Source of the DNA: Acidithiobacillus sp.
GTDB taxonomy: Bacteria; Pseudomonadota; Gammaproteobacteria; Acidithiobacillales; Acidithiobacillaceae
DNA: 64,000 nucleotides
Direction: 5' to 3'
NCBI RefSeq assembly: GCF_023256195.1
Contig: NZ_JAGDWX010000013.1
Span: forward strand, 14,893 to 78,892
A program made the translations under genes and the position numbers. The notes under the pieces were generated by a model. The model worked only from the letters and a program-made list of their open reading frames with translations. It did not search any database and was not told the origin of the DNA. How positions within the stretch are numbered: the first letter of the stretch is position 1; every line of letters begins with the position of its first letter. Of this stretch, positions 23,176 to 27,236 are shown piece by piece.

Positions 23176-23820
23176 TCAGGAGCTGCAATAGAGCCTTTCC
23201 GCCACAATATATTCCAAGACGGCTTCGGGCAACAGAAAAGCGGGGCTCCGTCCGGCCGCAAGCAGACTGCGGATGCGGGTGGCCGATATCTCCAGGGCCG
23301 TGACATTCAAAAAGGCAATCTTGCCCGCCGGCTCCGCGCGTAATGCCGCGAGGTCGTCACAGCGACGCTGGTACAGGGCCTGGCGCAGTGCCTCCGGCAA
23401 CTCGGCAGCCGGCCACCCCGGCCGACCCGTGACGACGAGGTGGGCGAGATCGAGGATCTGCTCCCACGCGCGCCAAGTGTCGAAGCGCAGGAAGGCATCC
23501 ATGCCGATCACCATGGACAGTGAGGCCGCCCCATGCTCCTCGCGCAGGTGACGCAGGGTATCGACGGTGTAGGAGGGGCCCTCCCGCTCTACCTCGAAGC
23601 TGCACACTGCAAGCTGCGGGTATCGCCGTACCGCGCGCCGCACCATCTCCAAACGGTGGCGCGCCGGCGCCCAGGGGCTCTGACGGTGCGGCGGGTGACC
23701 GGCCGGGATCAGCAGGGCCCTGGGCAAGCCCAAGGCTTCCCGAACCTCTTCCAGAGCGCGCAGATGCCCATAGTGCACCGGATCGAATGTGCCGCCGAGG
23801 ATGACCAGGTCATGCTTCAT
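23176..23820 (-). CDS. nadD: NadD, nicotinate-mononucleotide adenylyltransferase
   Basis: NadD adenylylates nicotinate mononucleotide to form deamido-NAD. The 214-residue product has the nucleotidyltransferase motif [17 protein letters not shown] (about 9-25) and the C-terminal [13 protein letters not shown] (ISxTxIR). The ATG at 23820 gives the canonical N-terminus [10 protein letters not shown]; an in-frame ATG 18 bp upstream is possible. No ribosome-binding site precedes either, while a TATAGT -10 lies at 23832-23827, so the mRNA may be leaderless. It is the first gene of the - strand run to rng. Confidence 0.95.
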
Positions 23821-23898: not shown

Positions 23899-23927
23899 TT
23901 GACAAATGCAACCTAGTTGCATAATTT
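23899..23927 (+). promoter_or_regulatory. Promoter with palindromic operator upstream of the OprB-like porin gene
   Basis: A TTGACA (23899-23904) and TAATTT (23922-23927) are spaced by exactly 17 bp, and the last 15 bases of the spacer are the palindrome TGCAACCTAGTTGCA (23907-23921), with perfect 6-bp arms. A repressor bound here would exclude RNA polymerase. A near-identical site, TGCAACCTGATTGCA, sits on the promoter of the next gene but one element, the metal-binding protein at 25315. The form resembles boxes of Fur-family metal regulators, but the regulator is not in the window. Confidence 0.7.
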
Positions 23928-23956
23928 CTCGCCATCCACAGAGCTTGACCCCACCG

Positions 23957-23980
23957 ATCATTATCGTTAATGATAATGAT
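23957..23980 (+). promoter_or_regulatory. Fur-box-like inverted repeat before the OprB-like porin gene
   Basis: ATCATTATC (23957-23965) and GATAATGAT (23972-23980) form a perfect 9-bp inverted repeat around GTTAAT. Overlapping GATAAT-type hexamers on both strands are the elements of Fur binding sites. It lies 30 bp before the start codon, downstream of the candidate promoter, and overlaps a second weak promoter (TTGACC at 23945-23950). Confidence 0.6.
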
Positions 23981-24010
23981 ACGCGTTTACATTTAACGAA
24001 GAGGAAATCC

Positions 24011-25246
24011 ATGCGTCGTACAGTCATCTCTGCGCTGCTGAGCATTATGGTCGCTTCCAAGGCTTTCGCCTTCACCCCGGCCGAGCAGGGTCAAGGCCCG
24101 GTGGCAAAGGTCCCGGGTATCCCTGCCAGCTTCCTGCCCGCCTACAATCGACTGGCCGATGGCTGGTCCTGGGCCGGCCACCTGGACACCGAGAGCTACA
24201 GCAACCTCGCCGGTGGCCAGGCGCGGGGAACTACGGCCAATCTGCTGGGACAGTTGGGCGGGCGTCTGGACACCGGCCGCGCCGGTCTCTGGACTGGGGG
24301 ACAGTTCACGCTCACCGGCCTTGGGATTTTGGCCGGTGCCGATCCCGAGGGCTACAGCGCCGCGCTGCAGTCGCCGAGCAATATCTATGCGCCGTCGCGG
24401 CTGCATCTATACCAACTGAGCTTTCGCCAGCAAATCGGGGCGGGCGTCCAGCTGCGGCTGGGCTACGACGACATCAACCACTACTTTGATGTCGTCGGCA
24501 ATGCCGAGAACCTATTGAACAGTGCCTTCGGCTTCACGCCGACCATCACGGAAAATGTCCCCGGCAACGGCAGCTATCCCTACAGCGCCTTAGGCGCTCT
24601 GATCGGCCTGCACGGGGACCATTGGGGGACGAAACTCGGGATCTTCCAGGGAGACGCTCAGCACCAGTTCACGCACACCTTTGCCCGTGGCTATCTCGCT
24701 CTGTGGGAGGGTGGGCTGCGCTGGGGATCGGCGAGCGGTGCATCGGAGGGGGAGGAGGGAGACGATGGTGCTGCCTACGTGCTGAAACTGGGGGCCTGGC
24801 ATTATCGGCAACCGCATCCCGAGCTTCCGGAGCTTAGCCCCAGCACCTCAGGCGTCTATACGGTGTGGGAGGCGCGCCGGGATCTGACCCAGGGCCGCCG
24901 CCTGGGACTGTTTCTGCAGGGGGCGGCGGCGCCACAGACCATCAATCGCATACCCTGGCAGCTGGCTCTGGGTCTACGTCTACAGCAGCCCTTTCCCGGT
25001 CGGTCCGGCGATAGCCTCAGTCTCGGCGTGACTCGCTCCTGGCTGCGCAGCGCGGTGCTGCGAGGGGACGAGGACCTTCCCGCCGGGCCCATCCATCCCG
25101 CCGAAACGGCCTATGAGCTTACCTACGTGGCCCAGTTGCGTCCCTATCTCAGTGTCCAGCCGGATATCCAGTTCATCCACAGACCTCAGGGGGTCTATCC
25201 CGATGCCACCGCCGCCCTGCTGCGCGTGCACCTGGAGTTCTTCTGA
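24011..25246 (+). CDS. OprB-family outer-membrane porin
   Basis: A 411-residue outer-membrane protein with a signal peptide ([20 protein letters not shown]) and a beta-barrel pattern ending in the terminal Phe of VHLEFF. Segments such as [57 protein letters not shown] and HRPQG match the carbohydrate-selective OprB family, which forms 16-stranded channels. The ATG at 24011 follows AAGAGGAAA. The control region carries a palindrome shared with the downstream metal-binding protein gene plus a Fur-like box, so this copy is more likely used for metal (or metal complex) entry than sugar. That is inference from regulation. Confidence 0.82.
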
Positions 25247-25255
25247 GAGTCTCCC

Positions 25256-25297
25256 TTGACAGAATGTCGTCTGCACTCATAATGCAACCTGATTGCA
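25256..25297 (+). promoter_or_regulatory. Promoter and palindromic operator of the metal-binding protein gene
   Basis: TTGACA (25256-25261), a 16-bp spacer and CATAAT (25278-25283) form a strong promoter. TGCAACCTGATTGCA (25283-25297) covers the expected transcription start. It differs from the porin-gene operator at only two of fifteen positions, keeping the TGCAA-N5-TTGCA core. The AGGAG ribosome-binding site follows at 25303-25307. Confidence 0.7.
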
Positions 25298-25314
25298 CCT
25301 ACAGGAGTCATGTC

Positions 25315-26253
25315 ATGGTCCTCCGCCGCCTCGTCCCTCCCCTCCTGCACCCGCTGCGTGTTTCAGGGATACTGTCTTGGCTGGGTCTGGCGCTGTGTCT
25401 GGGATGCGCCAGCCCGGCCCTTGCGCAAGCCATCCCCGCCGTCGGCGCCGAAAACGAATACGCCGATGTCATCGCCCAGATCGGCGGCCCTTACGTGCAG
25501 GTACGCGCCATCGAAAGCAATCCCAACACGGATCCCCACAGCTTCGAGGCCAGCCCGGCGGTGGCCCGTGAACTGGCCGAAGCGCGCCTGGTAGTGCGCA
25601 ATGGGCTGGGCTATGACGATTGGGCGCGGAAGATTCTGGCGGCCAATCCAATGCGTGAACGTCGCGTGATCGTGGTGCAGGATCTGCTGGGTTTACCGCG
25701 CAATACGCCCAACCCGCACCTTTGGTACCGACCCGAAACCATGCCCAAGGTGGCTCAGGCAGTGGCTCAGGCGCTGGCCCAGCTCGACCCAGCTCACGCC
25801 GCCTACTTTGCCGCGCGGGTCCAGGATTTCGATCGGTCCTTGCAGCCCTGGTTCCAGGCCATCGCTCAGTTCAAGGCCCGCTATAAGGGCACCCCCGTGG
25901 CCGTCACCGAACCGGTGGCCGACTACCTTCTCGAAGCAGCGGGCTGCCGCATCGAGACGCCTTGGGCCCTGCAGGCGGCCATCATGAACGGCACCGATCC
26001 GGCACCCCAGGACGTCAGTTACCAGAACCGGCTGCTGGATCGGCACCAGGTCAAGGTGTTTCTGTACAATCAGCAGGTGACGGATCCCCTCACCCGCTCC
26101 TTTCTGGATCGCGCCCGCCAACACGGCATCCCCGTGGTGGGCGTCTACGAGACCATGCCGGAGGGCTACCATTACCAGACCTGGATGTTGGCCGAGACCA
26201 AGGCCCTGATGGCCGCTGTGGCCCAGGGTCGATCCACTACGGTACTGCACTGA
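25315..26253 (+). CDS. ZnuA/TroA-type periplasmic metal-binding protein, orphan
   Basis: A 312-residue cluster A-I (TroA superfamily) metal-binding protein with a signal peptide ending near ALAQA|IP. Expected ligand positions are His75 (NTDPHSFE) and His135 (NPHLWYRPE). At the third position, normally His, the sequence has Glu199 (VTEPVADYLLEAAG), and the fourth acidic ligand is probably in VYETMPEGYHYQ. It lacks the His-rich loop of classical ZnuA. No ABC permease or ATPase gene is adjacent, so it must use a transporter elsewhere or act as a metal carrier. It shares an operator with the preceding porin gene. Zn, Mn or Fe cannot be told apart. Confidence 0.85.
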   Translation: MVLRRLVPPLLHPLRVSGILSWLGLALCLGCASPALAQAIPAVGAENEYADVIAQIGGPYVQVRAIESNPNTDPHSFEASPAVARELAEARLVVRNGLGYDDWARKILAANPMRERRVIVVQDLLGLPRNTPNPHLWYRPETMPKVAQAVAQALAQLDPAHAAYFAARVQDFDRSLQPWFQAIAQFKARYKGTPVAVTEPVADYLLEAAGCRIETPWALQAAIMNGTDPAPQDVSYQNRLLDRHQVKVFLYNQQVTDPLTRSFLDRARQHGIPVVGVYETMPEGYHYQTWMLAETKALMAAVAQGRSTTVLH

Positions 26254-26312: not shown

Positions 26313-27236
26313 ATGGAAGCCTCCTCACCTGCGCCTTCACCCAGCCTCGTCCAACGCTTTACCGCGGGCGCCGCTGTCGCACTGATGCGGCTGTCCGCGC
26401 GCTTGCCACGGCGGGCGCGCCTCGGTCTGGCGCATGGACTCGGCGACCTTGCGCGCCTGCTGGTGCCACGGGCGCGTCGGGTCGCCCGTCGCAATCTGGA
26501 GATAGCCTTTCCGGAGTATTCGAAAGCGCAACAGCGGCGCCTCCTGCGCGCGCATTTTCACGCCCTGGGCGAAGCCCTCCTCGAACTGGGCCCTCTCTGG
26601 CTGTGGCCCCTGCCGCGGGCTCTGGCGCTCATCCGCGAGGTGCGCGGGGGCGCGGCCGTGGATGCCGCCATCGCCGAGGGCCGCGGGGTCGTGCTGTTCA
26701 CGGCCCACCTGGGTTCCTGGGAGGCGGCGGTGCAGTACATCGGCCAGCGCTGGCCCGTGACGGTGCTCTACATGGCCACCCGAAACCCGCTTATCAACGA
26801 GCGTCTGGTGTCCGGTCGATCCCGCAGTGGCGCCCGGCTGGTGGCCAAGGAGGGTGGTATCCGGCCACTGCTCCAGGCTCTGCAGCGCGGCGAGGCTGTC
26901 GGCATCCTGCCGGACCAGAACGTAGACCCGCGCGAGGGCGTGTTTGCACCTTTCTTCGGCCGCCCTGCCTGTACCACGCCCCTGCTGGGACGTCTGGCCG
27001 AGAGACGACGCAGTGCCGTCTTCGGTCTCTTTGCCTACCGTCTGGAGCAGGGCGAGGGATTCCGTCTCGAGATCACGCCCATGCCCGAGGATTTTCCCAG
27101 TGGCAACGCCGAGAACGATGCAGCAGTCATGAACGCCGCGCTGGAGCACGCCATCCGTCAGGCACCTGCCCAGTACTGGTGGGTGCATCGGCGCTACAAG
27201 GACCCCGCCCCCAGCTGGGATTATCCCTACGACTGA
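26313..27236 (+). CDS. LpxL/HtrB-family lipid A lysophospholipid acyltransferase
   Basis: A 307-residue membrane-associated acyltransferase that transfers a secondary acyl chain to lipid A precursors at the inner membrane. The catalytic HxxxxE motif is HLGSWE in VLFTAHLGSWEAA (about residue 132), followed by VLYMATRNPL and ILPDQNVDPREGVFAPFFGRPA, the family substrate-binding region, and YWWVHRRYKD at the C-terminus. Which acyl chain it adds, and whether it is LpxL or LpxM, cannot be decided. The start ATG lacks a ribosome-binding site, consistent with a leaderless transcript. Confidence 0.92.
   Translation: MEASSPAPSPSLVQRFTAGAAVALMRLSARLPRRARLGLAHGLGDLARLLVPRARRVARRNLEIAFPEYSKAQQRRLLRAHFHALGEALLELGPLWLWPLPRALALIREVRGGAAVDAAIAEGRGVVLFTAHLGSWEAAVQYIGQRWPVTVLYMATRNPLINERLVSGRSRSGARLVAKEGGIRPLLQALQRGEAVGILPDQNVDPREGVFAPFFGRPACTTPLLGRLAERRRSAVFGLFAYRLEQGEGFRLEITPMPEDFPSGNAENDAAVMNAALEHAIRQAPAQYWWVHRRYKDPAPSWDYPYD

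Follow-up and report, generated by a model that had tools for sequence, protein, structure and literature searches.

Two adjacent genes of an Acidithiobacillus genome, one for an OprB-family porin and one for a metal-binding protein, each have a promoter containing an almost identical palindrome, which raises the question of what regulator would read these sites and which metal the pair would serve. A sequence-only reading had proposed that shared operators, each in its own promoter, point to a single metal-responsive regulator. Inspection of the window (the whole stretch of 64,000 nucleotides that was analysed) together with Pfam searches confirmed both palindromes and their promoters, as well as the assignment of the porin to OprB and of its neighbor to the TroA family. 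The features of the locus are listed below.

23176 to 23820, minus strand: nadD (context), divergent from the porin gene and also next to it in A. caldus and g4 genomes.
23899 to 23927, plus strand: porin promoter P1, with TTGACA at 23899-23904, a 17-bp spacer and TAATTT at 23922-23927 (hexamers called by eye).
23906 to 23922: Zur-type box ATGCAACCTAGTTGCAT, matching the published ATGCAACNNNGTTGCAT at 17 of 17 positions (PMC545781).
23945 to 23977, plus strand: candidate promoter P2, a CTTGACC element with a Fur-like site over the -10 region; the -10 hexamer is uncertain in this genome.
23957 to 23984: Fur-like site ATCATTATC-GTTAAT-GATAAT-GATACGC, downstream of the porin Zur box, from its match to the Fur consensus.
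24011 to 25246, plus strand: OprB-family porin, ortholog of A. caldus FeoP (82% identity; PF04966, E 1e-28).
25256 to 25283, plus strand: binding-protein promoter, with TTGACA at 25256-25261, 16 bp and CATAAT at 25278-25283, conserved in A. caldus.
25282 to 25298: Zur-type box ATGCAACCTGATTGCAC, over the binding-protein start region.
25315 to 26253, plus strand: ZnuA/TroA-family metal-binding protein (PF01297, E 9e-43), predicted ligands H75, H135, E199 and E279.
26315 to 27236, plus strand: acyltransferase-like gene (open reading frame, start approximate), placed where htrB is in feoP-znuA-htrB (PMC7237784).

The palindrome TGCAACCTAGTTGCA (23907-23921) was read within the -35/-10 spacer of P1, and TGCAACCTGATTGCA (25283-25297) overlaps the -10 hexamer and start region of the binding-protein promoter. 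The genome, a member of the Acidithiobacillus caldus clade, was searched for the operator by pattern with the reversed motif as control. TGCAAN5TTGCA was found exactly twice in 1.98 Mb, both times at the porin/binding-protein locus, and its reversed control not at all. When the family consensus TGCAACNNNGTTGCA was allowed up to one mismatch, only three sites were identified genome-wide, at the promoters of the porin, the binding protein and an ABC operon, and the palindrome is thus not a frequent element of promoters without a link to these genes. The other 32 genomic sites had two mismatches, versus 23 in the control, and look like background. Four near-matches were read and none was kept: one on contig C2 falls among the opening codons of a gene for a ribosomal protein, two are inside coding sequence (C8:489 and C10), and one on C35 lies close to the start of a gene and has poor palindromic symmetry.

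The third site, CGCAACCCGGTTGCA, lies 12 bp from the start codon of an ATPase gene on another contig, which is followed by genes for ABC-3 permeases (C28:82538-84156) in an ATPase-permease-permease operon. The binding protein had been described as having no permease or ATPase gene beside it. With an ATPase and two permeases encoded on that other contig behind the same operator, the orphan label was discarded. An identical division into three parts, each with its box and with the ABC operon again set apart, was present in G018, the sole other genome of the genus compared, which is A. caldus or very near to it and which published A. caldus primers match exactly. Separate ABC operons with the box were also found in G023, G024 and G028.

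Across 29 genomes of the family the exact motif was found at 52 sites and the reversed control at 2. With neighbors assigned by tblastn, every one of the 52 adjoins a recurrent target type; these genomes are related, and the sites are not independent events. The neighbors were the binding protein (15 sites), the binding protein with a divergent porin (6), a FeoP-type porin (2), a porin with CutA (2), a TonB receptor (9), an amino-acid permease (11), a COG0523 GTPase (5) and DUF1826/dusA (2). That two short palindromes should be alike by chance would fit a scan of the 64-kb window, in which sites with two or fewer mismatches were no commoner than in shuffles, a scan that was itself uninformative. 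Against this, three of three genomic sites lie at functionally matched promoters and every family site lies at a recurrent target, and on the basis of this genome-wide and 29-genome placement we ruled out chance similarity, whose probability we regard as negligible.

The 17-mer is identical to the Zur box of znuABC-zur in Desulfovibrio, as given by Rodionov and co-workers (PMC545781). In addition, a beta-proteobacterial metagenome-assembled genome (locus L104) has the box ahead of a binding protein-ATPase-permease-Zur operon, whose regulator is 36% identical to that of the genome studied here. COG0523 and DUF1826 genes also occur in published Zur gene clusters (PMC2770081). Together, the predicted targets across the family are those of a Zur-type regulon, and the earlier proposal of one metal regulator behind the shared operators was supported, with a regulator probably of Zur type. 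No CobW_C/COG0523 gene was found in the genome under study, and therefore the most zinc-typical target is absent from it. The amino-acid permease, a frequent target of about 476 aa (L124-L126, L131-L133, L141, L151, L154, L158 and L159), is apparently split into two frames in G018 (L133) and G021 (L151). The TonB-dependent receptor under the box, of about 770 aa (L121, L137, L142, L145, L146, L152, L153, L157 and L162), is a candidate zinc receptor.

The search for a Fur-family regulator identified two genes in this genome, Fur (C12) and a Zur-like gene (C18:98790-99311). The Zur-like protein is Fur-family by Pfam, falls below the NCBIfam Zur cut-off, and has Fur-family proteins, E. coli Zur among them, as its nearest solved structures. 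Its ortholog was identified in 28 of the 29 genomes, the exception being 71% complete; in G018 it is at C1:1429616-1430137. A 2008 survey named the other Fur-family members of acidithiobacilli Irr and PerR, not Zur (PMC2631029). With just two Fur-family genes available, it could be proposed that Fur itself reads both kinds of site, and the fragment used in a published mobility-shift assay (EMSA) of A. caldus Fur would be compatible with Fur contacting the palindrome: the published primers delimit a 190-bp fragment (at locus L194) that holds the Zur-type box as well as the Fur site. We consider this very unlikely. The palindrome is unlike the Fur consensus, and at feoA of this genome a Fur-like site occurs without the palindrome. 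The family also conserves a separate gene for a Zur-like protein, a relative of which lies in the L104 operon. The conserved Zur-like gene most likely encodes the repressor.

The identity of the metal was approached from the binding protein and from the regulon. The binding protein is predicted to have a TroA fold with a long backbone helix (cluster A-I), and its predicted ligands are invariant in 79 aligned sequences, with one gap at H75. Binding proteins of the manganese/iron type have H-H-E-D ligands and zinc proteins have H-H-H. The H-H-E-E set of this protein appears closer to the former and is not diagnostic of zinc; in its sequence and alignment we did not find the three-histidine metal site or the histidine-rich loop of zinc-type ZnuA. 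Its nearest folds included carriers of both zinc and manganese, with a manganese-bound Liberibacter protein, PsaA and MntC among the top matches. NCBIfam gave no name above cut-off to either the binding protein or the Zur-like regulator. Zinc and manganese carriers could not be told apart by fold, and naming the metal from the ligands or fold of the binding protein was dropped.

These invariant ligands and top folds, with a weak MntC profile match, are what would be expected if the regulon were real but manganese-sensing (Mur/MntR-like), the binding protein and porin then forming a manganese route. Several observations argue otherwise: AztC, AztB and AztA were also among the weak NCBIfam profile matches, the same box is found on COG0523 and DUF1826, which are zinc-regulon markers (PMC2770081), the published box belongs to znuABC-zur (PMC545781), and the 2008 survey predicted that mntH in acidithiobacilli is under Fur control (PMC2631029). 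A manganese-sensing regulon is therefore improbable in our estimation. That the metal sensed is zinc is a likely interpretation, one to which the regulator class and companion targets point and the binding protein does not.

The porin itself has an OprB domain and a beta-barrel fold, and its model could be superposed on P. putida OprB (4gey) with a TM score of 0.73 at 18% identity; the number of strands in the model is uncertain. P. putida OprB is a carbohydrate porin with sugar specificity. In our tree the porin grouped in a clade with feoAB-linked porins (18 rows, support 100). Its orthologs in g2 genomes lie directly ahead of feoA-feoB; most of them have a Fur-like site, and the Zur box is absent. 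In the genome studied here and in A. caldus the porin gene adjoins znuA, not feoABC, and the adjacency to feoAB is seen elsewhere. Based on tree and synteny, the porin is assigned as FeoP. The FeoP-clade porins have in common an acidic, D/E-rich loop at about residues 235-250 of this porin (alignment columns 335-362), where 3 to 9 D/E residues (8 or 9 in most cases) are aligned, compared with 0 to 2 in other porins. The loop is absent from the Zur-box (second) and third porin clades described below.

The pairing of a porin with a metal carrier had been thought unusual. A feoP-znuA-htrB cluster has however been described in A. caldus MTH-04 (PMC7237784), and OprB-family porins have been tied to iron since 2004-2008 (PMC545781; PMC2631029). 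The A. caldus cluster has the same gene order and a Fur-type site in the leader, and its feoP is detached from feoABC (PMC2631029, PMC7237784). Fur was reported there to bind and repress A. caldus feoP, as determined by EMSA and RT-qPCR (PMC7237784), and the suggestion of a single regulator for the porin is therefore not supported.

The Fur-like site in the porin leader (23957-23984) is a second operator-like element that the sequence-only reading had missed. It has 5 mismatches to the 19-bp Fur consensus and is still the best match in the 64-kb window, in which the 9-bp inverted repeat at this site is the sole occurrence. Upstream of it, the P2 element GAGCTTGACC is present in A. caldus too, and G020 has TTGACC. 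As the TTGACC element is conserved in this genome, A. caldus and G020, it is a possible second porin promoter. The Zur-type box ahead of the FeoP porin has 0 mismatches at 14 positions in this genome, 1 in A. caldus, 1 in G020 and two in the G027/L040 lineage.

Repression of feoP by Fur in A. caldus (PMC7237784), and the g2 layout, in which the ortholog precedes feoA-feoB, lacks the Zur box and in most cases has a Fur-like site, would be explained if the porin were the iron porin FeoP only, its Zur box being incidental or a relic with no role in zinc uptake. Retention of the box upstream of the porin in this genome, A. caldus, G020 and the G027/L040 lineage speaks against this, as does the presence of the box at znuA and cutA loci of a second OprB lineage, and we judge an iron-only role to be unlikely.

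That second OprB clade (about 31-33% identical), from several g2 and g4 genomes, is divergent from a binding-protein operon or from cutA, with the Zur-type box between. At L136 and L245 the CutA gene and the second-lineage porin gene point away from each other on either side of the box, and L135 has the same porin and box. At L138 and L161 the box lies between DUF1826 and dusA, with a second-lineage porin behind DUF1826, and at L161 feoA-feoB are found further on. A third OprB-family lineage in the genus is represented in this genome (C23:30816-31805, L223) and in G018 (C1:1317970-1318974, L229), and is followed by genes that look CorA-like on inspection by eye. Since two OprB lineages are under the same Zur-type box, repeated recruitment is suggested. 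We consider the chances about even that in Acidithiobacillia OprB porins became Zur-controlled zinc channels of the outer membrane on two or more occasions, and that in the caldus lineage the iron porin FeoP turned into a shared Fe(II)/Zn(II) channel under tandem Zur/Fur control.

Considered together, we hold with good confidence that a Zur-type repressor, probably responding to zinc, uses the palindrome as its operator in a three-promoter regulon (FeoP, the ZnuA-like protein and the ABC operon), and that the porin is probably also controlled by Fur. The sites, their uniqueness and conservation, the gene content and the orthology were computed here, and Fur binding and repression are published for A. 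caldus. In the mechanism that we infer, the metal-bound Zur-like repressor, the metal being probably zinc, would sit in the spacer of the porin promoter and cover the start regions of the binding-protein and ABC promoters, keeping all three shut. When the metal is short the three would open and supply a pore for the outer membrane, a carrier for the periplasm and a pump for the inner membrane. As the porin leader has a Fur site and repression of the ortholog by Fur is published, a shortage of iron would be expected to release the porin too, possibly through the two-promoter layout, and the tandem Zur and Fur sites suggest an OR-type logic. The most likely role of the porin is that of a pore for divalent metals, which would be produced under a shortage of either zinc or iron, and a single pore may serve the uptake of both metals. 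The proposed outer-membrane to periplasm metal route was supported insofar as the pair looks like one; that metal passes through the porin is a prediction.

Little is known of the passage of metal ions across the outer membrane where TonB receptors and siderophores are not used. A porin gene predicted to be wired to both iron and zinc repressors and adjoining a metal-binding protein gene, plus a second OprB lineage with the same zinc box, allows the idea that porins generally admit divalent metals to be tested directly in A. caldus, which is a culturable, genetically tractable acidophile for which a fur deletion exists. The dual wiring also offers a reason for feoP standing apart from the feo operon in the caldus lineage, and a defined Zur-type box is now at hand for biomining bacteria. 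In the literature searched, a Zur-type operator on OprB porins of two lineages, and the dual wiring, appear to be unreported.

Compared with known systems, the fold of the porin resembles that of P. putida OprB (4gey), and the acidic loop of the FeoP clade is a difference from the other porin clades compared here. In A. ferrooxidans feoP lies beside feoABC, whereas the porin described here is detached, as in the published A. caldus layout. The A. caldus feoP was treated as an iron gene only in PMC7237784 and PMC2631029, and text searches of these papers returned no Zur box, zinc link or link to a distal ABC operon. The Desulfovibrio znuABC-zur system has the identical 17-bp consensus, which governs a ZnuABC-type importer (PMC545781). 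That lineage is distant, however, and in the genome studied here zur is outside the operon, while the regulon has three separate promoters and counts a porin gene among its members. Among iron-linked members of the OprB family with an inorganic-ion role, the Geobacter porin precedes feoAB and is under Fur (PMC545781), and Synechocystis Slr1908 is a protein that, unlike the porin here, carries an SLH domain (PMC8707739); for neither was a zinc-type operator reported in the sections of PMC545781 and PMC8707739 consulted. Known Zur regulons with outer-membrane proteins include TonB receptors, and oprD as a Zur-regulated porin (PMC6103462). As in those regulons, the system described here would place an ABC importer and a protein for metal entry at the outer membrane under one zinc repressor, but the entry protein is of the OprB family and is probably also under Fur.
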